From contig JAOUHJ010000008.1 of assembly GCA_029865225.1 (NCBI GenBank), positions 1-64,000 on the forward strand: 64,000 nt of DNA. The letters run 5' to 3'. Every line of letters starts with the position of its first letter. The first letter of the stretch is position 1. Under the pieces are notes generated by a model, which saw only the letters and a program-made list of their open reading frames with translations, was not told where the DNA came from and did not search any database. The position numbers and the translations under genes are program-made. Shown one piece after another: positions 47,429-61,486 of this stretch. This stretch comes from Nitrospira sp. (GTDB taxonomy: Bacteria; Nitrospirota; Nitrospiria; Nitrospirales; Nitrospiraceae).

Positions 47429-47935
47429 ATGTGTAGACTCTCGGACGCTTCATTCTCTAAGGGAACTACCGTCCTGCTCAGTGGAGGACTGCTGTGTACG
47501 ATGGTGGCTGCCGGCTGCGCAGATGCCGGGAGGGTTCACAGCACTATGCATGTGAATCCGTGCCTGATCCCCGATACCAGATATTCCATTCCTTTGTCAT
47601 TATCGGCCGGGAAGGAACATCGCGCGGTTATGCTGCAACACCTGGAAACGCTTCAGGTGATCATGAATGCGTTGGTGGAAGAGGACTATGAATTGGCCCA
47701 GGGCCTGACCGAGGCGCATATCGGCTTTTTCAGACGTCGCCAGGCCATGGCCCATCAGGAACCGGAGAAGTTCCCTGCCGCCTACCATGATCTTGCTCTG
47801 GCCCATCATGAGGCAGCGGAGGAATTGGTGCGGGTGATCCCGAGTAAAGACTTGAAGCAGATCTTGCCATCGGTGAATAATGTCTTGAAAGCCTGTGTGG
47901 CTTGTCATGTGGAATACAGAGTCGGAGAGGGATGA
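47429..47935 (+). CDS. Cytochrome c'-like lipoprotein with C-terminal heme site
   Basis: 168 residues. A signal sequence ends in VAAGC (Cys near 29), a lipobox. The rest is helical (LQHLETLQVIMNALVEEDYELAQ, AAYHDLALAHHEAAEELV) and the single heme motif CVACH lies near the end, as in cytochrome c' (four-helix bundle, heme at the C-terminus). Cytochromes c' bind NO or other small ligands. The neighbouring hemerythrin gene also points to O2/NO sensing or scavenging (inference). Confidence 0.82.
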   Translation: MCRLSDASFSKGTTVLLSGGLLCTMVAAGCADAGRVHSTMHVNPCLIPDTRYSIPLSLSAGKEHRAVMLQHLETLQVIMNALVEEDYELAQGLTEAHIGFFRRRQAMAHQEPEKFPAAYHDLALAHHEAAEELVRVIPSKDLKQILPSVNNVLKACVACHVEYRVGEG

Positions 47936-47952
47936 TCATCACTGATGGGAGG

Positions 47953-48438
47953 ATGAAATTGACTGAGCAACAGACGATCACGACATTCTATGAGAAAGAT
48001 CACGACCGCCTGGATGAGTTGTTTAAGACCTTTCAAACAGTGAAACGGTCGGATTTTCCCAAGGCGAAGGAAGCATTCAAGGAGTTTAAGATAGGTCTCC
48101 AACGCCATATCGTCTGGGAAGAGGAACTGCTGTTTCCGATCTGGGAAGAGAAAACCGGGATGATCGAGGACGGGCCGACGCCCATCATGCGATTTGAACA
48201 TGAACAGATCAAAAAGCTACTCGAAGCCATTCATCAAAAAGTGGAAGGACACAATCTCGAGTCCGATCAGGACGAGCAGGCGCTCCTCAACCTCTTGAGT
48301 TCTCACAATAGGAAGGAAGAACGGGCGCTGTATCCTGCCATCGATAACGTTATCGGCCCAGACGAGTGCGCAAAGATCTTCAGCGACATGAAGAATATTC
48401 CAGAGGATCGGTACAATGCCTGTTGTAGTCAGCATTGA
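47953..48438 (+). CDS. Hemerythrin-like (HHE domain) protein
   Basis: 161 residues. Histidines and acids in FYEKDHDRLDELF, HIVWEEELLFPIWEE, MRFEHEQIKKLLEAI and SHNRKEERALYPAID make the di-iron HHE site. Such proteins bind O2 or NO or repair iron-sulfur clusters (YtfE-like); the C-terminal CCSQH may add function. GGGAGG precedes the ATG at 47953; another ATG at 47932 overlaps the preceding stop. In the por operon it could protect the oxygen-sensitive oxidoreductase. Confidence 0.9.
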   Translation: MKLTEQQTITTFYEKDHDRLDELFKTFQTVKRSDFPKAKEAFKEFKIGLQRHIVWEEELLFPIWEEKTGMIEDGPTPIMRFEHEQIKKLLEAIHQKVEGHNLESDQDEQALLNLLSSHNRKEERALYPAIDNVIGPDECAKIFSDMKNIPEDRYNACCSQH

Positions 48439-48934
48439 CAGTGATCAAAGGCGAGGGCGAGGCGATCTCAGGGGCCTTTTTTCAAAGGTCAGCTACCGCC
48501 GGCTAATCTTGTTTGGTCTCTGTTTGATGGGATGGCTGGGAGTGGAGTCGGTAACTATGACCAGTTACGGTTGGGCCGAGACGTCGTCCTCGCAACCGAC
48601 CGGAAAGCTCAAAGGCAATATCCCGCAAGGCCGGGAGATTTTTAATGGGAAAGGGGTCTGCTACTACTGTCATGGGATTGATGGGTATCTGCACAAAGTT
48701 CCTCGACTTGAAGCGGACACGGCGAAGCTCATCGCAAAACTGAATCCTCCTCCCACCGACTTGCGGAATCCCAACGTCCTTCGCCTGAAAACCAACAAAG
48801 AACGAGCCCGCGCCATCAGGGAAGGTCATCCCGGCACTGGCATGTTTCCCGACACCACTATGACCGATCAAGATCTCGCCGATGTCTTGCTCTACCTCGC
48901 ACTGATCAGAAAAGACCCGAATCCGGAGCAGTAG
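48416..48934 (+). CDS. Exported monoheme cytochrome c
   Basis: 172 residues if translated from 48416, which overlaps the hemerythrin gene by 23 nt; a membrane helix lies at about 27-45 (RRLILFGLCLMGWLGVESV). Heme site CYYCHGIDG near residue 82, then LNPPPTDLRNPNVLRLKTNKE and HPGTGMFPDTTMTDQDLADVLLYL with the probable Met ligand. An internal start would shorten the charged N-terminus but keep the helix. It is the last cytochrome of the ytxH-por operon. Confidence 0.85.
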   Translation: MPVVVSIDSDQRRGRGDLRGLFSKVSYRRLILFGLCLMGWLGVESVTMTSYGWAETSSSQPTGKLKGNIPQGREIFNGKGVCYYCHGIDGYLHKVPRLEADTAKLIAKLNPPPTDLRNPNVLRLKTNKERARAIREGHPGTGMFPDTTMTDQDLADVLLYLALIRKDPNPEQ

Positions 48935-49424: not shown

Positions 49425-49709
49425 ATGCGTTTTGAATGGGATGCTATAAAGGAAAAGGCGAATCGAAGGAAGCACGGTATTTCGTTCGATGAGGCACAGA
49501 CGGTGTTTTTTGATGAGCATGCCATTCAATTCTTTGATCCAGATCACTCTGATGACGAAGACAGATTTATTATGCTCGGCATGAGCTTCAAGTTGCGTGT
49601 GATCGTCGCGTGCCACTGCTTCCGAGAGAGTGAGACCGTTGTAAGGCTATTCTCTGCGAGGCGGGCTGATAAAAGCGAAGAACGAGAATATTGGAGGAGA
49701 AGACGATGA
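49425..49709 (+). CDS. brnT: BrnT toxin (type II toxin-antitoxin)
   Basis: 94 residues. MRFEWDAIKEKANRRKHGISFDEAQTVFFD and RVIVACHCFRESETVVRLFSARRA are the BrnT signature; the fold is RelE-like and the family acts as an mRNA-targeting ribonuclease toxin. The C-terminal EREYWRRR is typical. It ends inside the start of brnA (overlap of 4 nt, ATGA), the usual toxin-first order for this family. Confidence 0.92.
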   Translation: MRFEWDAIKEKANRRKHGISFDEAQTVFFDEHAIQFFDPDHSDDEDRFIMLGMSFKLRVIVACHCFRESETVVRLFSARRADKSEEREYWRRRR

Positions 49710-49924
49710 GAGAGCACTACGATTTTTCCAAGATGAAAGGGCGTAAGAACCCGTATGTGAAATATTTGAAACAGCCGGTCACGATGCGGCTCGATCGTGA
49801 TACGGTCGCCTATTTCAAGTCCATAGCCGAGGAAATGGGTATTCCCTATCAGAGCCTGATCAACCTCTACCTGCGTGACTGTGCCATGCACCACCGCAAA
49901 CTCCACATGAAGTGGGCGTCCTAG
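49706..49924 (+). CDS. brnA: BrnA antitoxin (ribbon-helix-helix)
   Basis: 72 residues. The DNA-binding part QPVTMRLDRDTVAYFKSIAEEMGIPYQSLINLYLRDC fits the BrnA family: a short N-terminal toxin-binding segment, then a ribbon-helix-helix. GGAGGAG at 49693-49699 supports the ATG at 49706. It neutralises BrnT and likely represses the promoter at 49384. Confidence 0.92.
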   Translation: MREHYDFSKMKGRKNPYVKYLKQPVTMRLDRDTVAYFKSIAEEMGIPYQSLINLYLRDCAMHHRKLHMKWAS

Positions 49925-49942
49925 TTCTGCCTGAGGAAAGGA

Positions 49943-50239
49943 TTGAGGGCATCCGTGAAGACGAATGTGGCCAAGTCCAGCGGCAATGTCTTTATTGATC
50001 TCGGTTTTGATCAAGATGAAGCCGCTGTGCTCCAAATGCGCGCGAATCTCATGAGCGACCTTCGTCTCTATATTGAAAAGCGCAAGCTCACTCAAGCTCA
50101 GGCCGCTAAGCAATTAGGCATTGCGCAATCCCGCGTGTCCGACCTCGTGCGCGGCAAGTGGGACAAATTCAGCCTGGAAATGCTCATCGCGCTTGAAGCG
50201 CGGATTGGTCGGAAAGTGCCGGTCGAGTTTACGGCCTGA
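49943..50239 (+). CDS. XRE family HTH protein (antitoxin-like)
   Basis: 98 residues from a TTG at 49943 (GTG at 49955 also possible). MSDLRLYIEKRKLTQAQAAKQLGIAQSRVSDLVRGKW is a standard XRE helix-turn-helix of the kind found as antitoxin of RelE/HigB-like toxins (HTH_37 type). No such toxin gene precedes or follows it: upstream is brnA and downstream an unrelated membrane protein. It may be an orphan, or a third member of the BrnTA locus. Confidence 0.82.
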   Translation: MRASVKTNVAKSSGNVFIDLGFDQDEAAVLQMRANLMSDLRLYIEKRKLTQAQAAKQLGIAQSRVSDLVRGKWDKFSLEMLIALEARIGRKVPVEFTA

Positions 50240-51183: not shown

Positions 51184-53349
51184 CTAAACGGTGTGTCGTG
51201 ATGGCTCGATTCGTATCCTCGCATCCACGATCCGACAACCATGACCTTCTGGGAGGGCAAAGATGGGATTCAAATCCAGCTCGCTGATTTCGGGAATCGC
51301 TTCGGCGAGGTGAGAGATGCGTAACAGCGCGTCTTCAATCGCCTTCAGATCAACGGCTTGCTGGCCACGATAGCCGGTGAGCAACCGATAGCCCTTGATC
51401 GCTTTCACCATGTCGCTCGCATCGCGATCGGTCAGCGGTGCGACGCGGAACTGGAGATCGCCAAGAATTTCCACGTGAATGCCCCCGAGGCCGAATGCGA
51501 TCACGGGGCCGAAAAGTGGATCGCGGGTCATGCCGACCATCACCTCCACTCCACCTGACAGCATCGGTTGAACGAGCACTCCTTCCATTGCCTCCAACTG
51601 GCCAGCCTGTTCGAGCCTGGCCCGAATCCGGTTGAATGCGTCGCGCACTGCGTGGTCATCGGCCAAGTTCAACTGCACTCCGCCCATTTCAGTCTTGTGC
51701 ACAATCTGATGTGATGCCAGCTTTACGGCAACAGGAAAACCGATCTTCTGCGCCAGCTTCACTGCGTCCTCCGCAGTGGTTGCTATGCCACCGGGGATAA
51801 GAGGGATCTTCATAGCCGCAAGGAGGGCATGGGTTTCTTGGGTTGTGAGCCAGCCTGCACCGCGATCGGTCAAGGCCTTGGTATAGATCTCTTTAGCTGC
51901 TACGAGATCGATATCGCTATAGGTAGGTACCTGCCCACACGGTTGTTGCCGCCACGCATCATAGGCCAGTGCAAGGTTGAGGATGCGGGCAGGAATCTCA
52001 GGATGCCGATAAGTTGGAATGGTTTCTCCATCGACGATGAACGAGCGATCGAGATCTCCCTCTGCCATCCAACAGAGGTGGACCGGCTGCTTGTGGCCTA
52101 CCTGGCGAGCTGCACGGATTCCCTTGATGATCCCTGCTGCAACTGGGGGATTGTCTCCAGGTCTCACGGATACGTGTACAATAATCAGAGCGTCAAGTTC
52201 ATCCGATGTCAGCATCGTCTCGACAGCCTGCGCATGCTGCTCTTCAGTCGCAAAGCCGATGACATCGACAGGGTTTCTGAGCGCGGCCATTGAGGGGAGG
52301 AAGGAGGCGAGTGCCGACCGCGTTCGTTCGGACAACTCAGGTACAGAAAGCCCTTCTGCCGCACAACTGTCGGCACAGAGCACACCCGGCCCTCCTGAGT
52401 TGGTCAAGATCCCAATTCGCTTACCTTGTGGACGTGGCTGGCTCGACAGGCCTGTAGCCAGCGCCAGAAACTCTTCTAAGGTCTTTGCCCGGATCACTCC
52501 ACATTGAGCAAACAAGGCGTCAACAGCCTTATCGTTTGTCGCGAGTGCCGCCGTATGCGATCCGGCGGCGGATTGTCCTGCGTCTGTCAGGCCCGCCTTC
52601 AGGACGACGACCGGTTTATTTCTGGCAACTCGTTCGGCAATCCGTCTGAACCGTTGAGGGTCGACGATGGTTTCGAGGTACAAGAGAATGACATCAGTGT
52701 TTGGGTCTTGCTCCCAGTACTCGAGCAGGTCGTTCACAGTCACGTCCACATGATTACCGACGCTGACGAAGCTGGAGACACCCAGATTCAACCGCTGGGC
52801 TGCCGTGACTACGGCCAGTCCGAGTCCGCCGCTTTCGGAAGCGAGGGCCACACGACCGGCCGGTGGAATGATCGGCGTATAGGTGGCATTGAGCCGGATG
52901 GCGGGGTCGAGGTTCATCAATCCGAAACAGTTCGGCCCGATCAGACGAATTCCGTATCGGTGAACTCTTTCGCGCAACTGCTCTTCGAGCGACGTTCCGA
53001 TGTCGCCGGTTTCGGCGAACCCCGCTGTGATGACAATCGCCGCGGGAATCTGTTTGGCCGCACAGTCGTCGATGATGGATAAGGCGAGACCAGCCGGCAC
53101 TGCGATGATGGCCAGATCGACAGGAGAAGGAATGTCCCGAAGCGATGGAAAGGTACGAAGTCCCGCGATCTCAGTGGCATGAGGATTGACCGGGATGACC
53201 GAGCCGGTAAAGCCGCCATTCTGTAGCGACTCGAGAATGCGGTGTCCGATACCGGTTTCTTCGCGGGTGGCGCCGACCAGGGCGATCGCGTGCGGATAAA
53301 AAAATGGCTTCAGCGACCCGCTGCTGTATTCCTGTGAGGGTCCAGTCAT
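51184..53349 (-). CDS. ADP-forming acyl(acetyl)-CoA synthetase, fused alpha-beta
   Basis: 721 residues. It converts acetyl-CoA + ADP + phosphate to acetate + ATP + CoA (or related acids). Order: CoA-binding domain (YPHAIALVGATREETGIGHR), ligase domain with IGPNCFGLMNLDP and the phospho-histidine loop AAGSHTAALA, then the ATP-grasp domain (PVAVKLASHQIVHKTEMGGV, VLVQPMLSGGVEVMVGMTRD). The ATG at 53349 (AAGGGA upstream) is preferred to a TTG at 53385. It is the last gene of the operon that begins with Hsp20, and would yield ATP from acetyl-CoA made by the por enzyme. Confidence 0.93.
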   Translation of the reverse strand: MTGPSQEYSSGSLKPFFYPHAIALVGATREETGIGHRILESLQNGGFTGSVIPVNPHATEIAGLRTFPSLRDIPSPVDLAIIAVPAGLALSIIDDCAAKQIPAAIVITAGFAETGDIGTSLEEQLRERVHRYGIRLIGPNCFGLMNLDPAIRLNATYTPIIPPAGRVALASESGGLGLAVVTAAQRLNLGVSSFVSVGNHVDVTVNDLLEYWEQDPNTDVILLYLETIVDPQRFRRIAERVARNKPVVVLKAGLTDAGQSAAGSHTAALATNDKAVDALFAQCGVIRAKTLEEFLALATGLSSQPRPQGKRIGILTNSGGPGVLCADSCAAEGLSVPELSERTRSALASFLPSMAALRNPVDVIGFATEEQHAQAVETMLTSDELDALIIVHVSVRPGDNPPVAAGIIKGIRAARQVGHKQPVHLCWMAEGDLDRSFIVDGETIPTYRHPEIPARILNLALAYDAWRQQPCGQVPTYSDIDLVAAKEIYTKALTDRGAGWLTTQETHALLAAMKIPLIPGGIATTAEDAVKLAQKIGFPVAVKLASHQIVHKTEMGGVQLNLADDHAVRDAFNRIRARLEQAGQLEAMEGVLVQPMLSGGVEVMVGMTRDPLFGPVIAFGLGGIHVEILGDLQFRVAPLTDRDASDMVKAIKGYRLLTGYRGQQAVDLKAIEDALLRISHLAEAIPEISELDLNPIFALPEGHGCRIVDARIRIEPSRHTV

Positions 53350-53397
53350 CGATCCCTTCTCGTAGGAAGTGTGAGGGTCGCTCAACGGGGCGAACGA

Positions 53398-54552
53398 TCA
53401 GATAAGCCACTCGGGCGAAAGAAGCAAGATGGCTCCGAGACCGGCCATGACCAGGCCACTGGCCAGCTTCAGCCAGCGTCCAGCCCTTTCTTGTAATTTC
53501 CTCCGACTCAGCGTGACCACCGCGATCGTCACCATGAGTCCGTCGTCAAGAATATAGGCCAGGTTATAGAGGCCAAGGTACCCGTAGTAGTTCCACGTCG
53601 GCAACTGTTGCATCGTCAGGATTTGTGTATAGACCGCTGGAAATCCGGCTGTGCAGAGCAATTCAATCGTATTCACAAGCCCGGCCAGAACGATGACGCT
53701 CACCAAGGCTCCGGCAAGGTTGTCGGCCTGGAGGATGCGGCGGATACGAGCATACAGGCCGGGTTTCGCGGACTCGGGGATGCTCAGAGACAGACCTTGA
53801 TGGAGAGCAAAGAAATCTTTCACATTGACCGTTCCGATGAAGAGCGCGATGCCGCCGAGCCCGATCTGAAGGGCGCGCGACAGCCCTACCACAAGAAACA
53901 CGTTGAGCCATGCCGCCATGAAGGCAAAATAGAGCAATCCACTGACGATGACGAACGTTCCGGCGATGAGCGCCATCTTCCGCCGATCTTGGAGATTGAC
54001 CAGCAGCGACAGGAGAAAGAGCAGGACCCACATCGCGCAAGGATTGAAGCCGTCGAGCAAACCGATCACGATGGTGAACAGCGGCAGGCCAAGATCCCGG
54101 ACACGAAGCGAGCCGAACCATCCCGTCTCGATGCTCTCGACCGATGGACCTGGTACGGTGTCCGGTGCTTTCCGGTCGAGCATGGCGCGGATTTTAGCTC
54201 CGGTCGTGTCGGACGACTGGAATCCGAGGATCAGCTCTGTGCCGATGAGAAATGCAGGAACACCAAGGGTGGTGATGCCTCGATCCTTGGCCCATACCTC
54301 GAGTCGTTGTCGCGCGGCGGGGTCCTCAGCGATGTCGTAGAGGGCAATGTGAAGCGAAGGACGCTCGCGTCGAAGGTCGTCGAGGAAAATCTTTGCGGCT
54401 TCGCAATGGGGACAGCCCGCTCTGACAAAAACCTCGATGTCCGGGATAGCTTCTCCCGCCCAAGCGCTGGCCGGGAGAGCGAGCACGATGACGAAGACGT
54501 GCGTGGCGAGCTGACGGAAGAATGTGTGCCAAGCTGTGCGCTGGAACGACAC
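53398..54552 (-). CDS. Thioredoxin/glutaredoxin domain fused to DsbD-like membrane protein
   Basis: 384 residues. After a signal-like helix, residues about 35-135 form a glutaredoxin-like domain with CPHC (FVRAGCPHCEAAKIF). Residues about 150-384 are a polytopic membrane domain with about six helices; its Cys residues in GLLDGFNPCAMW and LLCTAGFP resemble the paired cysteines of DsbD/CcdA electron carriers. It likely moves reducing power across the membrane to a periplasmic thiol protein, perhaps for heme attachment in the many cytochromes c. It is 5 nt from the cytochrome gene. Confidence 0.82.
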   Translation of the reverse strand: MSFQRTAWHTFFRQLATHVFVIVLALPASAWAGEAIPDIEVFVRAGCPHCEAAKIFLDDLRRERPSLHIALYDIAEDPAARQRLEVWAKDRGITTLGVPAFLIGTELILGFQSSDTTGAKIRAMLDRKAPDTVPGPSVESIETGWFGSLRVRDLGLPLFTIVIGLLDGFNPCAMWVLLFLLSLLVNLQDRRKMALIAGTFVIVSGLLYFAFMAAWLNVFLVVGLSRALQIGLGGIALFIGTVNVKDFFALHQGLSLSIPESAKPGLYARIRRILQADNLAGALVSVIVLAGLVNTIELLCTAGFPAVYTQILTMQQLPTWNYYGYLGLYNLAYILDDGLMVTIAVVTLSRRKLQERAGRWLKLASGLVMAGLGAILLLSPEWLI

Positions 54553-54557
54553 CTCTG

Positions 54558-54914
54558 CTAACTGGTGATGTCCGGTGGTGACATGAATCTGATGTACGAC
54601 AACACATCCAGCATTTGCTCATCCGTCAGCTTACCGCGAAAGCTGTGCATCGGGCTGAACAAGACGCCGTTTGAAATCGCCACGAGTAACTCCCAATCCG
54701 TCTTCGAGCGACTGATCTGAGATCGAAGATCGGCCGGTTGGACGATCAAATCTTGGCTCTCTGGCCCATTTCCGTCCAGTTGAGCCCCATGGCAACGGAG
54801 GCACTGTCGCTCATACACACCCTGTCCGGCCTTCGAATCCCCTCGGATCGCTTGAGCGAAGACCACAGATGTTGAGAGGGCAATGAATAGTAGTATGAGA
54901 GTCGTCGCTTTCAT
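54558..54914 (-). CDS. Periplasmic monoheme cytochrome c
   Basis: 118 residues with signal peptide to about residue 21 (VVFAQ) and heme site CLRCHGAQLDG. The remainder (WELLVAISNGVLFSPMHSFRGKLTDEQMLDVLSYIRFM) makes it a paralogue of the cytochrome at 43267. The ATG at 54914 gives a clean signal; the frame also opens at 54950 inside the usp gene. GAAAGGAGCG is the ribosome site. Confidence 0.9.
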   Translation of the reverse strand: MKATTLILLFIALSTSVVFAQAIRGDSKAGQGVYERQCLRCHGAQLDGNGPESQDLIVQPADLRSQISRSKTDWELLVAISNGVLFSPMHSFRGKLTDEQMLDVLSYIRFMSPPDITS

Positions 54915-54925
54915 CTTCGCTCCTT

Positions 54926-55783
54926 TCACCGTAGTACGAGCACCGGGCAAGACACATGATGAACAACGGCATGGGATACGCTTCCCAACAGGAAGCGAGA
55001 AATGCCCTTCCGTCCATGAGAGGTGATGACGACGAGGTCCACAGCCTTTGCCTCTTCTTCGATCACCGAGGCGGCATGACCGGTGGCGACTTTCGTGCTG
55101 ACCGAGTATCGGGGGGTCATGAGTTTGCTGGCGGTCGACTTGACGAGTTCCTCCGCATAACGCTCAGCTCCCTCCCACCATGTTCTGGTACCCATGGCAT
55201 CGTAAGGATCGTCCACTCCGATCGGAACGACGGCGTGGAGTACGCAGAGTTCAGCAGGGTCGGCGAAGGGATGTTTCGTGAGCCATGCCGCGATTCGGTC
55301 AGCATCATCGCGATCCTCGATGGCGACAAGCACCCGTTGAACTTTGCGCGATGCACCCTTGACGATCAAGGTTGGGCGAGAGCCGTGCAAGAGCACCCGA
55401 TGGGATACGCTCCCGAGGACCATCTCCGAGAGCCGGCTTCGTCCACGCACACCGACGACGACGAGATCGGCCGAGAGGTTGTCCGCGCTGTCGAGGATGA
55501 GCTGTGCGGGATTAGCGACTTCATTGACCTTCCTGATGGACTTGATCTCCGGCGGAACCATAGTCGCGGCATGATCCAGTGCCTTGCGCCCGGCATCGAC
55601 CATCGCGTGACGGAAATCCTCGTACCCTTGGACGTTGCCTGCTTGGGCCACGACCGGATTTTGAAGAATTCCCAAGTCGACACCATGGACCAGGGTGACG
55701 TCCGATGGGTGATAGAGGTGGAACGTTTGGGTGACTGCCGCAAACGCCTGATCGGACCAATCGACGCCGATGACGACTCTCAT
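54926..55783 (-). CDS. Universal stress protein, two tandem domains
   Basis: 285 residues made of two UspA domains (about 1-145 and 146-285). Each has the nucleotide-binding G-2x-G-9x-G(S/T) pattern: VVGVRGRSRLSEMVLGSVSHRV and VITSHGRKGISRFLLGSVSHAV. Tandem USPs bind ATP and help survival in stationary or low-oxygen states. It lies in the hsp20 operon, 11 nt before the cytochrome c gene. Confidence 0.93.
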   Translation of the reverse strand: MRVVIGVDWSDQAFAAVTQTFHLYHPSDVTLVHGVDLGILQNPVVAQAGNVQGYEDFRHAMVDAGRKALDHAATMVPPEIKSIRKVNEVANPAQLILDSADNLSADLVVVGVRGRSRLSEMVLGSVSHRVLLHGSRPTLIVKGASRKVQRVLVAIEDRDDADRIAAWLTKHPFADPAELCVLHAVVPIGVDDPYDAMGTRTWWEGAERYAEELVKSTASKLMTPRYSVSTKVATGHAASVIEEEAKAVDLVVITSHGRKGISRFLLGSVSHAVVHHVSCPVLVLR

Positions 55784-55807
55784 TCCATGACCTTTCCCAT
55801 CCGACCG

Positions 55808-56353
55808 TCAAAACAGCGGATGTGGTGCGGTGCCGAACGGAAGCACCAGCGGTGATTCGCCAAGATTGCCGCGAAGACGCCACGAGCCGTTTTCCGGGAC
55901 GAGGTAGTGTACTTCTTCATGCCAACTGTCGATGGGGACATACAGGCCGGTGGTCTTCGATCTGGCCCACAAGTGCCCTGTGCACGTGACCTCCAGCACA
56001 GCATCCTTCCCTGCTCCGAGCTTGGTCATCTTTGTGAAGAGATGGGTACTGGCGATCTCCTCGTACTCATCAAAGAGATCTTTCCAGATCTTGCGGATAT
56101 CGTCCTTCTTAAACCCATGGTAGTTGTACTGGGAGGAATAGATGGCCATGACCTGTTCCAGGTCATGGGCTTTGATCGCTTGCTCCGCCCGCTCAAAGGC
56201 TTTGACAACGCTATTGACCGTCGCCTCGTCGACCTCAATCACCGACCCGGATGGAACGACGATTTTCGCCGATGCCGTGCCCAGTCCGATGACACTTGCG
56301 ATCAGGAGTACCAGTGAGACAACCGTCGATGCTGGATGACCTCGTCCGCTCAA
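55808..56353 (-). CDS. Exported NTF2-like (DUF4440-type) protein
   Basis: 181 residues with signal peptide (SLVLLIASVIGLGTASA) and an NTF2/DUF4440-like domain (VVKAFERAEQAIKAHDLEQVMAIYSSQYNYHG, VLEVTCTGHLW). The fold usually binds a small molecule or acts as an uncharacterised enzyme. No active residues can be assigned. It is exported, so it works in the periplasm. It is 24 nt from the usp gene and 13 nt from the phosphoribosyltransferase gene. Confidence 0.75.
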   Translation of the reverse strand: MSGRGHPASTVVSLVLLIASVIGLGTASAKIVVPSGSVIEVDEATVNSVVKAFERAEQAIKAHDLEQVMAIYSSQYNYHGFKKDDIRKIWKDLFDEYEEIASTHLFTKMTKLGAGKDAVLEVTCTGHLWARSKTTGLYVPIDSWHEEVHYLVPENGSWRLRGNLGESPLVLPFGTAPHPLF

Positions 56354-56366
56354 GCGAGCCTCCTTT

Positions 56367-57056
56367 TTATTGTGGTGGTGAGCCCGTCGAAGAAGGTGTC
56401 CGCTCTTTCCATTCCAACTGCGACTCTTCCGCCAGGTTTAAATACTCCACCACATCGTGATCGCTGACTTCGGCGAAGTCGATAAAGTGATGACCCACAG
56501 CCCAGAATGGGTCTGGTGTGGCGAGGATGACCAACTCATCCACCTGGACGCGCGCCTCTCGTATCGTATCGACAGGGCCGACCGGAATAGCTCCGATCAG
56601 TCGGCGAGGTTTAAGGTGTCTGATGGACTGGACAGCTGCAAAGAACGTGGAGCCGGTGGCGATCCCATCATCCACGAGAATCACACTGTGGTCGGCAAGC
56701 GTGGGCATCTGCCGACCTTGGCGGTACATACTCTGCCGTCGAGCGATCTCTTCTTGCTGCATGTGAACCAGCCCGTCGACGTCGGTTCGTGAAAAACCGT
56801 AGGCCGCCATTGCCTCAGGGTTCAGATAGATCGTCCCTGTTTCACCTACTGCGCCGAGTGCATACTCAGGGTTATCCGGCGCTCCCAGCTTTCGGGTGAT
56901 AAAGACGTCCAGCGGAAGATGGAGCCCCAGGCTCAGCTGATAGCCGACGGCGACCCCACCGCGTGGGAGTGCCAAGATAATGGCTGTTGGGTCATCACGA
57001 TACTGGAGTAGTCGTTCCACGAGCCGACGACCGGCCTCTTCGCGATTCCTGAACAT
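56367..57056 (-). CDS. Phosphoribosyltransferase-family protein
   Basis: 229 residues. FRNREEAGRRLVERLLQYRD and ILALPRGGVAVGYQ open the family, and SVILVDDGIATGST is the PRPP-binding loop. These proteins, often beside universal-stress and heat-shock genes, are annotated as phosphoribosyltransferases but the natural substrate is unknown. It is in the hsp20 operon. Confidence 0.9.
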   Translation of the reverse strand: MFRNREEAGRRLVERLLQYRDDPTAIILALPRGGVAVGYQLSLGLHLPLDVFITRKLGAPDNPEYALGAVGETGTIYLNPEAMAAYGFSRTDVDGLVHMQQEEIARRQSMYRQGRQMPTLADHSVILVDDGIATGSTFFAAVQSIRHLKPRRLIGAIPVGPVDTIREARVQVDELVILATPDPFWAVGHHFIDFAEVSDHDVVEYLNLAEESQLEWKERTPSSTGSPPQ

Positions 57057-57091
57057 TACGCTCTTTCCTTCCGCTCAGTAACCTCGCGGCC

Positions 57092-57256
57092 CTACACAAT
57101 AAGGCCGCTCGTTACTCCGACCCCGATCAACAACATCGCCAATAGAATCACGATGAGCGTGAGTAAGGGGTGGTGATGCGCCCCACCATCCTTCTTATCC
57201 CGCCTCTCCCAGTGCAGCTCCCAGGGAATTTCGAGGTAACGAGGGTGCCGGAACAT
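57092..57256 (-). CDS. Small membrane protein (54 aa)
   Basis: The predicted product has a polar N-terminus (MFRHPRYLEIPWELHWERRD) with Trp and His, a His cluster GAHHH and then one hydrophobic helix of about 23 residues ending GVTSGLIV. GGAGG at 57262-57266 (minus strand) sits 5 nt before the ATG at 57256; another ATG at 57259 is too near. It lies between hsp20 (17 nt) and the phosphoribosyltransferase gene (35 nt) in the same operon. No family is recognised. It could tether or recruit partners at the membrane. Confidence 0.6.
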   Translation of the reverse strand: MFRHPRYLEIPWELHWERRDKKDGGAHHHPLLTLIVILLAMLLIGVGVTSGLIV

Positions 57257-57273
57257 CATCTCCTCCACTTACT

Positions 57274-57747
57274 TCACGCGATTTTGACTTCAATCGCTTT
57301 AGGCTTCGCCTTCTCAGACTTTGGGAGATGGACTTTCAATACGCCATCCTTATACTCGGCGTTGACCTTCGACCCGTCGGCATCTTCGGGAAGGGTAAAG
57401 CTCCGCATGAAACTCCCATAGGCTCGCTCAACGCGGTGATACTTTTTGCCCTTTTCTTCCTTCTCGTATTTCCGTTCGCCACTAATCGAGAGGACATCGT
57501 CTTGGACGTTGATCTTGATCTCTTCTTTCTTCATTTCGGGCACTTCAGCTTTGATGACATATTCCTTCTCGTCCTCCGAGATATCCACGAGCGGCGACCA
57601 TTCGGAGACGGTGAGGGCTTCCTTCTTATCGCCGCCGGTAGGAACCGGTGTGCGGCCGAATAGGGCGGAGAGTCGTTTCTCCATTTCTTCGAGTTCCTTG
57701 AACGGATTCCATCGCGTCGTCGGTTCCCATCGTTGCAATGCGCTCAT
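57274..57747 (-). CDS. Hsp20 small heat-shock protein
   Basis: 157 residues. The alpha-crystallin domain (about 50-150) has YVIKAEVPEMKKEEIKINVQ, DDVLSISGERKYEKEEKGKK, YGSFMRSFTLPEDAD and GVLKVHLPK. It holds unfolding proteins for ClpB/DnaK. It begins an eight-gene minus-strand operon ending at 51184. A sigma-54-like promoter is read 61 nt upstream. Confidence 0.94.
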   Translation of the reverse strand: MSALQRWEPTTRWNPFKELEEMEKRLSALFGRTPVPTGGDKKEALTVSEWSPLVDISEDEKEYVIKAEVPEMKKEEIKINVQDDVLSISGERKYEKEEKGKKYHRVERAYGSFMRSFTLPEDADGSKVNAEYKDGVLKVHLPKSEKAKPKAIEVKIA

Positions 57748-58074
57748 AACCGTCGCCTCCTTGTATGTATGATTGATGAGGGCCTAGATGCTCTGCCATC
57801 AACATTTGCATTGACGGTGCCAACATCCAAGACTTGAAGGATCCACGAGAAAATGGCCTGGTTCTAGATAACCAGGCGGGCCGGGTTCATCAGAAATGGA
57901 GAAGGGTCTGTGGCAATACGGGACAGTGGCACCGAAGGGGCTGTGGCCTCTTTCGACATTGATTGATAGAAAAGTGGGAGGCCTGAAGGCAAGATCTGTG
58001 CATAAGGAGACTCGTGTCCTTGAGGGGGGTTACTGCTTGTCGTCCAGGAAGCAGGACAAGAACTGAGGTTGAGT
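57748..58074 (-). promoter_or_regulatory. Divergent promoter region with sigma-54-like element for hsp20
   Basis: On the minus strand, TGGCAC (57822-57817), N5 and ATGCA (57811-57807) give a canonical GG-N10-GC element, the same ATGC -12 box as the clpB promoter. Further upstream for this gene (plus-strand coordinates) are TGTGGCA 57909-57915 and TGTGGCC 57942-57948, about 90 and 120 bp from the -24 box. A plus-strand TGGCAC at 57927-57932 has a poor -12 partner (GGGC). No small gene is seen in this spacer. Confidence 0.55.
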
Positions 58075-59556
58075 ATGGGTCATGCAGGGCCGAAAGACTG
58101 GACGGGTAGGACCAAAGCAATGCGAAGCAAGTCACTCGCTTCCAGAGGCGGAAGTCACCAATCGGCCAACATGGCGAGGGAAAGTCAAGACGATAAGACG
58201 ACCAAGGTCCTCATCATGGGAGCCGCTGGTCGAGATTTTCATAACTTCAATATCGTTTTTCGGGATAATCCCAGCTATCGAGTCGTCGCATTCACCGCCG
58301 CACAGATTCCCCACATCGCGGGGCGAACCTATCCCCCAGAACTGGCTGGGACTCTCTATCCGAATGGAATCCAAATCGTACCGGAAGAGGAATTCGAGTC
58401 CATCATTAAGGCTCAGGCAGTCGATCAAGCGGTCTTTGCCTACAGCGATGTCTCGCATGAGGAAGTCATGCATAAAGCCTCGCGCGCCCTTGCCGCAGGG
58501 GCGGACTTCCGCCTGTTGGGCCCACGTTCGACGATGCTGTGTTCCATCAAGCCGGTAGTCTCTATTTGTGCAGTTCGGACGGGAGCAGGGAAAAGTCCCG
58601 TCGCGAGAAAAATCGCTGGTTGGCTGAGATCAGAAGGTCGGCGAGTCGCGGTGATCCGCCACCCGATGCCGTATGGCGATCTCGCGCAGCAGGCAGTTCA
58701 ACGGTTTTCCACGATCGAGGACCTGCAGCAGGCACGTTGCACGGTCGAAGAGCGTGAGGAGTACGAACCACATATCAATCAGGGTGATGTCGTCTTTGCG
58801 GGAGTGGATTACGAACGAATAATCAGGCTGGCCGAATCCGAGGCTGATGTCATCCTCTGGGATGGTGGAAACAACGATTTCCCGTTTGTAGAGCCCGATC
58901 TCGAGATTGTCCTCGTTGATCCCCACAGAGCGGGTCACGAACAATGTTATTTCCCGGGAGAGGTCAATCTGCTCCGTGCCGATGTGGTCGTCATCACCAA
59001 GGTGGACACGGCCCATCCGGAGAAGGTCGAAGCCCTTCGGCTGGCGGTTAACTCCGCTAATCCTATGGCTCCGATCATCGAATCCACAATGCCATTCATG
59101 GTCGAGGATGCCTCGGTCATTCAAGGCAAGCGTGTCCTGGTGATCGAAGATGGCCCTACAGTCACACACGGAGGCATGGTGTACGGGGCCGGGATCTTGG
59201 CGGCTAAAAAGTACGGAGCGTCGGCGTTTGTCGATCCGCGGCCGGCCGTGGTCGGTACTCTTCGTGACACATTTCGGGACAATCCACACTTGGATTGCCT
59301 CCTGCCGGCGATGGGCTACGGAGTCGGGCAGCTCCGTGATCTCGAACAGACAATCAACGGGGTGGACTGCGATGTCGTCGTCATTGCGACACCGGTTGAT
59401 CTCCGCGGGCTGATCAATATCAGGCGACCGACCGTGCGAGTAAGCTACGAATTCGAGGAAACCGGCAGCAGGCTTCGCAGCACGGTCATGCAACTGCTGG
59501 CGAACGAGCAGCACGATCGAACTCATCGATTCGGAACTCGAGGGAGCGCGGGATGA
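58075..59556 (+). CDS. P-loop protein like cyclic 2,3-diphosphoglycerate synthetase
   Basis: 493 residues. KVLIMGAAGRDFHNFNIVFRDNPSY opens the family; Walker A is RTGAGKSPVARK (near 168), followed by NNDFPFVEPDLEIVLVDPHRAGHE and VITKVDTA. It matches cDPG-synthetase-like GTPase/ATPases, widespread in bacteria that do not make cyclic 2,3-diphosphoglycerate, so the reaction here is uncertain. Start chosen at ATG 58075 (GAGG upstream); 58120 and 58171 are alternatives. Its last codon overlaps the next small gene in ATGA. Confidence 0.82.
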   Translation: MGHAGPKDWTGRTKAMRSKSLASRGGSHQSANMARESQDDKTTKVLIMGAAGRDFHNFNIVFRDNPSYRVVAFTAAQIPHIAGRTYPPELAGTLYPNGIQIVPEEEFESIIKAQAVDQAVFAYSDVSHEEVMHKASRALAAGADFRLLGPRSTMLCSIKPVVSICAVRTGAGKSPVARKIAGWLRSEGRRVAVIRHPMPYGDLAQQAVQRFSTIEDLQQARCTVEEREEYEPHINQGDVVFAGVDYERIIRLAESEADVILWDGGNNDFPFVEPDLEIVLVDPHRAGHEQCYFPGEVNLLRADVVVITKVDTAHPEKVEALRLAVNSANPMAPIIESTMPFMVEDASVIQGKRVLVIEDGPTVTHGGMVYGAGILAAKKYGASAFVDPRPAVVGTLRDTFRDNPHLDCLLPAMGYGVGQLRDLEQTINGVDCDVVVIATPVDLRGLINIRRPTVRVSYEFEETGSRLRSTVMQLLANEQHDRTHRFGTRGSAG

Positions 59557-59699
59557 AACGAGGTCATAAGTCGTTTAAGAATCTGCCCAAGATCCAGGCA
59601 AAGCGGTTCAAGAAGCTGAGGCTGGAGAAGGAACGAGAGCGAGCCAAGCGAATAAGAGTTAGGTCGGCCGAGAAACGGTCTCCAAGTAGAGGAGACTGA
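59553..59699 (+). CDS. Small highly basic protein (48 aa)
   Basis: The predicted product, from MKRGHKSFKNLPKIQAKRFK to the end KRSPSRGD, is nearly half Lys and Arg. Its ATG overlaps the stop of the P-loop gene in ATGA (59553-59556), a strong sign of coupled translation. Basic composition suggests binding to RNA, DNA or the ribosome, but no family is recognised. Confidence 0.6.
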   Translation: MKRGHKSFKNLPKIQAKRFKKLRLEKERERAKRIRVRSAEKRSPSRGD

Positions 59700-59752
59700 A
59701 GGCCAGGTGTCGATGTCTCCTGTCAATCCTCAAGAGAAGAATGTGGTGCAAC

Positions 59753-61486
59753 ATGCCGGCACATAATGCCGATGTCGCGGCGGTGTTTGAAGAGATGGCA
59801 GACCTTCTCGAGATCGAAGGATCCAACCCATTCCGCATTCGGGCCTATCGCAATGCGGCTCGCACGCTCCGGGATCTCCCGCGTGAAGTCGGCATGATGC
59901 TCGACGAGGGAGAGGATCTAACAGAAATGCCTGGTATCGGGGAAGACCTCGCGGCAAAGATCAAGGAGGTCGTCCAGACCGGTACGGCCGCTGCGCTCGA
60001 AGAACATCGCAAGAAGGTTCCAAAGACTCTCACGGACTTGCTCAGAATTCCCGGCATCGGACCAAAGCGAGCGAAAGCGCTGTACCACGATCTCAACATC
60101 CGGACGCTTGATCAGCTGCAGAAGGCTGCGCAGGACGGGCTGGTGAGATCGCTCCAGGGGTTTGGAGAGAAGACCGAACGATATATCTTGAATCAACTGA
60201 AGGAGCGGGCCGGGGAGGAGAAGCGATTCCAATTGGCGGTCGCCACTCAGTATGCCGGAGCCTTGGTCACCTACCTGAGGGAATCTCCAGGCGTGAAGCA
60301 GGTCGTGGTGGCGGGAAGCTATCGGAGGGCGAAAGACACGATCGGGGATCTCGATATCCTCGTCACCGCCGCCTCCGGTAGCCTCGTGATGGATCGATTC
60401 GTGTCGTATCCGGAAGTCGAAGAGATTCTGGCACATGGGGCGACCAAAGCGAGCGTCAGGCTGGCCTGCAAGCTGCAAGTCGATGTGCGAGTCGTTCGCG
60501 ATGATAGTTACGGATCCGCGCTTCAGTACTTCACCGGTAGCAAGGCGCACAATGTGGCCTTGCGTCAATTGGCACAGCAGCGTGGACTCAAGTTGAATGA
60601 ATACGGTCTGTTCAGAGGCGATCAGTCAGTGGCTGGGGCCACCGAAGAATCAGTCTATGCCGCAGTCGGGCTGCCGTGGATTCCACCGGAACTCCGGGAG
60701 AATCGCGGGGAGTTCGACAGCGCGCGAGCTGGGCGCTTGCCGGTGCTCGTGGAGGTTGCCGATCTGAAGGGCGATTTGCACGCGCACACCAAAGCGACCG
60801 ATGGCCACAACTCCATGAGAGAAATGGCGGAAGCGGCAGGGGCGAACGGTCTTGAGTATCTGGCGATCACCGACCATTCGAGACGTCTGACGATGGCCAA
60901 AGGTCTTGATCCGAAACGGCTGTTTGCACAACTCGAAGAGATCGATCGGCTGAACGAGACGTTGAGCAGCATCACCTTACTGAAGGGGATCGAGGTCGAT
61001 ATTCTTGAAGATGGCAGCCTGGATCTTCCTGATGAAGATCTCTGCCGACTCGACCTGGTAGTTGGGGCCGTGCATAGCCACTTCCGACTCTCCCGAGAAA
61101 AGCAGACCGAACGAATCCTGCGCGCCATGGACCATCCCTGTTTCACGATCTTGGCTCACCCCAGCGGCCGGCTCATCAATGAACGAGCGCCCTACGACCT
61201 GGACATGGCACGTGTCATCCACCATGCCCGAGAGCGAGGCTGCTTCTTGGAGGTGAATGCACATCCAATCCGGCTTGATCTAACCGACACCGACTGCCAG
61301 ATGGCAAAAGAGGAGGGCGTCATGCTCAGCATCAATTCCGATGCCCACAGTACCCTGGATCTTGGGAATCTCCGGTATGGTGTCGGGCAGGCGCGCCGAG
61401 GGTGGGTGGAGAAGAAGGATGTGTTGAATAGCCGGTCTCTACAAGCGCTGCGACCGCTGCTCAAGCGCACGATGATGAACGCGTGA
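59753..61486 (+). CDS. polX: DNA polymerase X family (PolX) with PHP domain
   Basis: 577 residues. Residues 1-330 are Pol-beta-like: helix-hairpin-helix motifs (MPGIGEDLAAKI, IPGIGPKRAKALY), nucleotidyl transfer motif AGSYRRAKDTIGDLDILVTA and later VDVRVVRDDSYG with the catalytic Asp. Residues 330-577 are a PHP exonuclease-type domain (DLHAHTKATDGHNSMREMAEA, AVHSHFRLS, INSDAHSTLDL). The length and layout are those of bacterial PolX used in gap-filling repair. The ATG at 59753 gives the usual NADVAAVFEEMADLLEIEG start; 59741 is possible. Confidence 0.95.
   Translation: MPAHNADVAAVFEEMADLLEIEGSNPFRIRAYRNAARTLRDLPREVGMMLDEGEDLTEMPGIGEDLAAKIKEVVQTGTAAALEEHRKKVPKTLTDLLRIPGIGPKRAKALYHDLNIRTLDQLQKAAQDGLVRSLQGFGEKTERYILNQLKERAGEEKRFQLAVATQYAGALVTYLRESPGVKQVVVAGSYRRAKDTIGDLDILVTAASGSLVMDRFVSYPEVEEILAHGATKASVRLACKLQVDVRVVRDDSYGSALQYFTGSKAHNVALRQLAQQRGLKLNEYGLFRGDQSVAGATEESVYAAVGLPWIPPELRENRGEFDSARAGRLPVLVEVADLKGDLHAHTKATDGHNSMREMAEAAGANGLEYLAITDHSRRLTMAKGLDPKRLFAQLEEIDRLNETLSSITLLKGIEVDILEDGSLDLPDEDLCRLDLVVGAVHSHFRLSREKQTERILRAMDHPCFTILAHPSGRLINERAPYDLDMARVIHHARERGCFLEVNAHPIRLDLTDTDCQMAKEEGVMLSINSDAHSTLDLGNLRYGVGQARRGWVEKKDVLNSRSLQALRPLLKRTMMNA

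Follow-up and report, generated by a model that had tools for sequence, protein, structure and literature searches.

What would bring a small heat-shock protein, a universal stress protein (USP), a cytochrome c and an ADP-forming acyl-CoA synthetase together in one row of eight genes, and what would turn that row on? The question is raised by a Nitrospira sp. genome (NCBI GenBank assembly GCA_029865225.1; 4.12 Mb in 169 contigs), from which we analyzed positions 1 to 64,000 of contig JAOUHJ010000008.1 (hereafter the window, 64,000 nucleotides in length). The answer we favor, and think probable, is that the row serves stress survival in the Nitrospira family, as an operon that would be transcribed from one sigma-54 promoter under enhancer control. 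Its signal, we infer, would be low oxygen or low energy, with shortage of oxygen or of electron acceptor and energy as the likeliest forms.

All eight genes lie on the minus strand, from 57747 to 51184, and the intergenic gaps are, in gene order, 14, 35, 13, 24, 11, 5, and 12 or 48 nt, the last depending on whether the synthetase starts at the TTG at 53385 or at 53349. The first-pass annotation of this DNA had listed the eight genes; all of its open reading frames were found with the families it gave them, Pfam supports most of these, and gaps of 5–48 nt are confirmed. A consensus scan found no sigma-70-like promoter on the coding strand (the consensus may not suit this organism), and this, together with the short gaps and the conserved sigma-54-type promoter that precedes Hsp20, fits one transcription unit, as that annotation proposed. 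No terminator-like site was seen after the synthetase gene, where the fold z is -0.85. Besides the sigma-70 promoter, candidates set aside for want of matches were a CIRCE element (none in the window at up to three mismatches), an Rfam RNA such as a thermometer (no match at gathering score), and an FNR box before the operon (none between it and the divergent gene with one mismatch allowed).

Conservation of the gene order in other genomes, proposed earlier as a check, holds for a core of the operon and fails for its NTF2-like member. We compared 70 named loci, including those of Candidatus N. defluvii and N. moscoviensis, whose NTF2-like relatives are titled Nitrospira or Nitrospirae/Nitrospirota/Nitrospiraceae in 69 cases and uncultured Nitrosospira in one. 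The order that recurs near close NTF2-like matches is Hsp20, small transmembrane (TM) protein, phosphoribosyltransferase (PRTase), (166-aa gene), NTF2-like, USP, cytochrome c, DsbD-like, and synthetase. Contig ends included, homologs were found for Hsp20 at 58 of the 70 loci, small TM protein at 57, PRTase at 66, USP at 68, cytochrome c at 61, DsbD-like protein at 43, and synthetase at 46. The extra 166-aa gene has homologs at 57, and the one representative tested matches NCBIfam NF040826 (lxa_BCAM0308) with 211 bits against a cut-off of 100; the window lacks this gene, since the 13-nt gap between PRTase and NTF2-like genes leaves no room for it. Because the 70 loci were chosen via the NTF2-like gene, NTF2-like and BCAM0308 genes are over-represented among them. 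In 65/70 loci (all except L219, L229, L231, L232, and L234) a USP gene comes after PRTase at a distance of no more than 3 kb and on the same strand, a linkage that exceeds chance.

The NTF2-like gene is the variable member. It precedes Hsp20 in N. moscoviensis (L228), it is present in only two of 12 PRTase-bearing copies picked by the promoter site and absent from the other 10, and it is matched in 29/59 relatives, where some of the matches are more distant paralogs elsewhere in the genome; the source genome too has such a paralog. Nitrospira and other genera of the family share the core of Hsp20, small TM protein, PRTase, USP, and cytochrome c. Within the family but outside the genus, 16 of 20 PRTase-centered loci have the whole or part of the cluster along with a promoter-like site. 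Outside the family but still within the phylum, with window proteins as queries, 20/20 sampled loci have no Hsp20, cytochrome c, DsbD-like, or synthetase neighbor; there, L273 has USPs and a BCAM0308 homolog beside PRTase, and L271 and L274 each have a lone promoter-like match. The PRTase is present in 71/79 genomes of the genus and 128/295 of the phylum. Three further variations occur among the relatives. At L050, genes for E1 (alpha and beta) and E2 of pyruvate dehydrogenase (families checked) lie between the cytochrome c and DsbD-like genes, and L058 has a similar insert there. A pyruvate dehydrogenase E1 alpha homolog is found at 16/70 named loci, and in N. defluvii and its kin it lies upstream of Hsp20. 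Finally, a 75-aa gene has homologs at 23/70 named loci, usually before Hsp20.

The consensus for sigma-54 promoters is a GG-N10-GC core in a TGGCAY..TGC context. The site before Hsp20, TGGCACCGTCAATGCA, has GG, ten bases, and GC in this context. Of 13 upstream regions, the window included, 12 show it; the contig of the 13th (L043) ends early. The pattern TGGCAYNNYCRATGCA gives 31 sites in 59 relatives (six for the reversed pattern); the operon accounts for 23 of the 31, and one more (G005:C100) precedes a different USP gene. Among 79 genomes of the genus it gives 65 sites in 56 genomes (10 for the reversed pattern), and 53 of these, in 52 genomes, share the strand of the PRTase gene and precede it by 70–1092 nt. 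TGGCAYN6TGC occurs 43–295 nt before the operon in 59/70 named loci, which altogether contain 94 matches in 2.2 million strand-bases, operon sites counted in; nine of the 11 loci without it are near a contig end, and L219 and L229 are not. The source genome has one rpoN match (PF04552) and 27 matches to PF00158, the enhancer-binding protein (EBP) family, 23 of them at 200 bits or more. The operon promoter is a candidate for use by sigma-54 (RpoN).

Activator dyads of sigma-54 promoters are expected about 80–150 bp upstream, and two putative ones of the form TGT-N11-ACA are present in that position, 33 bp apart from start to start (Table 1). No other pair with such a spacing occurs in the window, and 0/100 shuffles gave one. 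We compared 58 upstream regions of at least 200 nt with random windows of similar length: two TGY-N11-ACA dyads occur in 14 of the 58 regions, always spaced 33, and in 0.28% of the random windows, and at least one strict dyad occurs in 20/58 regions, with a background of 2.5%.

Table 1. Operon genes and proposed control sites in the window (all on the minus strand)
Feature	Position	Strand	Basis or remark
Distal dyad TGTCGAAAGAGGCCACA, proposed enhancer-binding site	57942..57958	-	TGT-N11-ACA; 136 nt before -24 element
Proximal dyad TGTCCCGTATTGCCACA, proposed enhancer-binding site	57909..57925	-	TGT-N11-ACA; 103 nt before -24 element
Sigma-54-type -24/-12 promoter TGGCACCGTCAATGCA	57807..57822	-	ends 59 nt before Hsp20
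Hsp20 small heat-shock protein	57274..57747	-	PF00011, 107.9 bits
55-aa single-pass membrane protein (one TM)	57092..57259	-	homolog in 57/70 named loci
PRTase	56367..57056	-	PF00156; PDB 1wd5
NTF2-fold protein, variable operon member	55808..56353	-	TTG start; structure model
Tandem USP	54926..55783	-	PF00582, two domains
Cytochrome c, one CXXCH	54558..54914	-	PF13442/PF00034
Glutaredoxin domain + DsbD/CcdA-like membrane domain	53398..54552	-	PF00462; GTG start
ADP-forming acyl-CoA synthetase, fused alpha-beta	51184..53349	-	CoA-ligase/ATP-grasp Pfam domains; alternative TTG start 53385

Two other features touch on this region or pattern. A palindrome with an 8-bp stem, GCCTGGTTATCTAGAACCAGGC, lies at 57856–57877 (-) between the dyads and the promoter and is not seen in aligned relatives. 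Among dyad matches in the source genome, a loose TGGC..GC match is found close to those at L067, L081, and L084, and at L081 (G000:C114:16851) there is a perfect palindrome, TGTCGCAAAAAGCGACA, with the sigma-54-like TGGCACACACTCTGCT 125 nt away.

If the operon is controlled as we propose, an unlinked EBP would bind both upstream dyads and, on a signal that is likeliest oxygen or electron-acceptor/energy shortage, would open the RpoN promoter. Hsp20 would guard proteins, the USP would bind, sense, or buffer nucleotides, the DsbD-like protein and the cytochrome c would handle periplasmic thiols and electrons, and the synthetase would turn acetyl-CoA (or another acyl-CoA) into ATP, the acetyl-CoA being provided by pyruvate dehydrogenase where that enzyme is co-encoded; the direction and substrate of this last reaction are presumed. 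The PRPP loop of the PRTase reads LVDDGIATGST, and its DDG.ATG is retained in 66/66 covered loci; the CXXCH of the cytochrome c is retained in 63/63. The DsbD-like label was given for a CPHC motif in the glutaredoxin domain and for cysteines of the membrane part that stand in NPC and LLC contexts, the Pfam search having given no DsbD family; cysteines 47/50, 172, and 300 are retained in 38/38, 36/36, and 35/35 covered loci. The first USP domain carries the G-2x-G-9x-GS motif that a passage of PMC11841059 names for USPs. The 55-aa membrane protein had no Pfam match. The NTF2-like protein, which has an N-terminal hydrophobic segment and is possibly exported, matched neither Pfam nor NCBIfam at E 0.001; its AlphaFold2 model (pLDDT 80, built from 29 sequences) gave 169 Foldseek matches with E <= 0.001, among NTF2/ketosteroid-isomerase-like structures, with modest query TM-scores of 0.34–0.55 among the 50 matches listed.

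The first-pass annotation had suggested that the locus is a low-energy survival unit, and this part of its reading is partly supported. It gains from the BCAM0308 homologs (57/70) and pyruvate dehydrogenase E1 genes (16/70) of the named loci, and from passages of PMC8115632 that place USPs among the highest proteome increases of N. marina at low oxygen; it loses from synthetase fusions in relatives that make a regulatory role possible.

These fusions, in which an N-terminal GNAT domain is joined to the synthetase in 27 of the 43 family loci where the USP gene has such an enzyme encoded downstream, are one of several points that weigh against a sigma-54-controlled survival operon. The USP rise reported in PMC8115632 would bear on the operon only if N. 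marina has it, and no expression data were found for the operon. The BCAM0308 gene, missing from the window, is found in only one of the 12 promoter-picked copies. As to the promoter, TGGCAYNNNNNATGCA has one match in the source genome and so has its reversed control, so that a single genome is no proof; in the window the form with one mismatch shows no enrichment (10 matches, 7.2 expected), and 12 of the 65 TGGCAYNNYCRATGCA sites lie elsewhere. The dyad pattern, with 30 matches in the source genome vs. 17 for the reversed pattern, is therefore weak alone. Dyads also diverge among lineages: at similar distances, other upstream regions hold diverged elements that were located by a profile derived from the first-group sites, which makes this a positional fit and not an independent test. 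No EBP gene was found in 150 loci around the operon with 14 of the source genome's 23 own EBPs as queries, a search that found 3/3 positive controls; the activator is therefore probably unlinked, encoded away from the locus. Lastly, the genome and locus sets overlap and the genomes share ancestry, so that they are not independent: N. defluvii is the source of both L211 and L244, and L196/L238, L222/L245, and L214/L246 share contigs, judged by length.

The GNAT fusions lead to the alternative that survives best, although we consider it unlikely for the locus as a whole: a regulatory protein-acetylation locus, whose synthetase-like protein, kin to Pat-type acetyltransferases, would tune enzymes and not make ATP. 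Such fusions occur at L153, L146, L148, and other operon relatives (Pfam), and the solved structures that match the window protein include the protein acetyltransferase chains 9it0 and 9isq. A further 41 family loci gave no synthetase match downstream of the USP gene. The window copy itself, however, has no GNAT domain, the feature looked for in a Pat-type acetyltransferase, and the solved structures that match it best are those of ADP-forming ligases or of their subunits. It has the domain set and the conserved histidines of ADP-forming synthetases: His 265 and His 551 are both present, and in the family loci covered the SHT histidine that aligns with the ADP-forming enzymes is retained in 42/42 and the second in 40/40. 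We take the catalytic role of these histidines from the archaeal enzymes. The protein resembles ADP-forming acetyl-CoA synthetase (ACD; PDB 4xyl and relatives) in its CoA-binding, succinyl-CoA-ligase-like, and ATP-grasp domains as well as in the aligned histidines; it differs in being a fused alpha-beta chain and in having 4-hydroxybutyrate-CoA ligase as its best full-length solved match, and it reached no NCBIfam cut-off for a named substrate. With the histidines kept and GNAT missing from the window copy, yet fused in relatives, ATP formation leads and acetylation is a serious rival; ATP production by the window synthetase is plausible.

We find it less likely still that this is a general heat-shock or envelope-stress operon, headed by Hsp20 and independent of oxygen or energy. 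Hsp20 does head the row, the products include a thiol-redox membrane protein and an NTF2-fold protein that may be exported, and passages of PMC10284858 report high expression of Hsp20 genes, copies not specified, in a hot-spring comammox Nitrospira. Against this stand the missing CIRCE element, Rfam match, and sigma-70-like coding-strand site in the window, and the electron-transfer and carbon genes and BCAM0308 homologs, which point to low-oxygen clusters. An old neighborhood of general stress genes with several transcripts and no shared regulation might account for the several kilobases that separate the cytochrome c from the DsbD-like gene at L050 and L058, for the lower counts of the DsbD-like (43/70) and synthetase (46/70) genes, and for the two synthetase kinds, but the 5–48 nt gaps in the window and the conserved promoter before the first gene make it very improbable.

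By analogy, a sigma-54-controlled survival operon may work like the low-oxygen-activated (lxa) locus of Burkholderia cenocepacia and the DosR regulon of Mycobacterium tuberculosis. DosR, unlike the activator proposed here, is not known as an NtrC-type activator. Passages of PMC6127331 describe lxa as about 50 genes with six USPs; it shares with our operon an alpha-crystallin-type heat-shock protein, USPs, and cytochrome c, its phosphofructokinase matches that of a second Nitrospira cluster (below), and BCAM0308 has homologs in many relatives of the operon. The same passages give the DosR regulon alpha-crystallin, several USPs, and phosphofructokinase in one hypoxia response. USP, Hsp20, and electron and carbon metabolism genes stand together in the window as in lxa, but the Nitrospira operon has eight genes and a sigma-54-type promoter, and we do not class it as an lxa member because it has neither a BCAM0308 gene nor an FNR-like box before it. 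For the proposed control, the nearest comparison is NmpR of Myxococcus xanthus (NmpRSTU), an NtrC-like activator of sigma-54 promoters with paired dyads, whose targets include a USP gene and one gene that is up under hypoxia, according to passages of PMC11841059. Its site there is GCGCA-N5-TGCGC, vs. TGY-N11-ACA in the Nitrospira operon, and its targets and operon make-up differ; the NmpR site was not seen in either operon dyad when these were read by eye, with no pattern search. We found no report of the operon or of a Nitrospira sigma-54 stress regulon in open-licence PMC full texts, and passages of PMC8510549, PMC3162934, PMC10284858, and PMC12542776 do not describe the operon.

The same kind of promoter occurs at a second cluster. 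At C134:16567 of the source genome a dyad match lies 149 nt before TGGCACCGCGCTTGCT, upstream of a USP gene, and the genes run in the order USP, tandem USP, a 463-aa protein (no match in the Pfam search), phosphofructokinase, tandem USP, and MarR-type regulator. The USP gene of this cluster was found in 69/76 genomes; a site of the form TGGCAYNNNNNTTGCT begins 40–57 nt before the USP match in 28/30 loci (not in L284 and L300), and a dyad lies at about -200 in eight of the 30. Operon and second cluster may share one activator. More tentatively, and with more doubt than belief, we suggest that the two could be the core of a sigma-54/enhancer dormancy regulon that switches nitrite oxidizers to a fermentative standby. 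If so, stored sugar would pass by way of pyruvate to acetyl-CoA (pyruvate dehydrogenase) and on to acetate and ATP (ADP-forming synthetase), while Hsp20 and USPs would protect the cell until oxygen or nitrite is available again. Nitrospira are widespread nitrite oxidizers that survive repeated loss of oxygen and nitrite in soils and treatment plants, and their waiting mode is poorly known. A family-wide signature of promoter and activator sites, with the same promoter kind at a second cluster, makes a testable regulon, and it would give access to the sensor that tells cells when to shut down.

The search for a mobile origin covered tRNAs only, of which the window has none, and the PHROGs search gave the USP as its sole match. 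Divergent from the operon, at 58069–61486 (+), are neighbors that include a PolX-like gene (named by eye) and one that we take to be cyclic-diphosphoglycerate-synthetase-like, for which Pfam gives a weak LpxK match only; homologs of these neighbors adjoin the operon in several relatives. From downstream, at 47902–48934 (+), the operon is faced by a cytochrome c gene and by one that looks hemerythrin-like by eye, and in many named Nitrospira loci their homologs lie near the operon on the opposite strand. An FNR-like match, TTGACAGTGATCAA, is found at 48435–48448; over the whole window the FNR-like pattern TTGATNNNNATCAA, with one mismatch, has 10 matches where 2.3 are expected, a number that 0/100 shuffles reached. 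At 49425–50239 (+) there are small genes, named by eye, that resemble a BrnT/BrnA toxin-antitoxin pair and an XRE regulator, and their homologs are close to the operon in some relatives.

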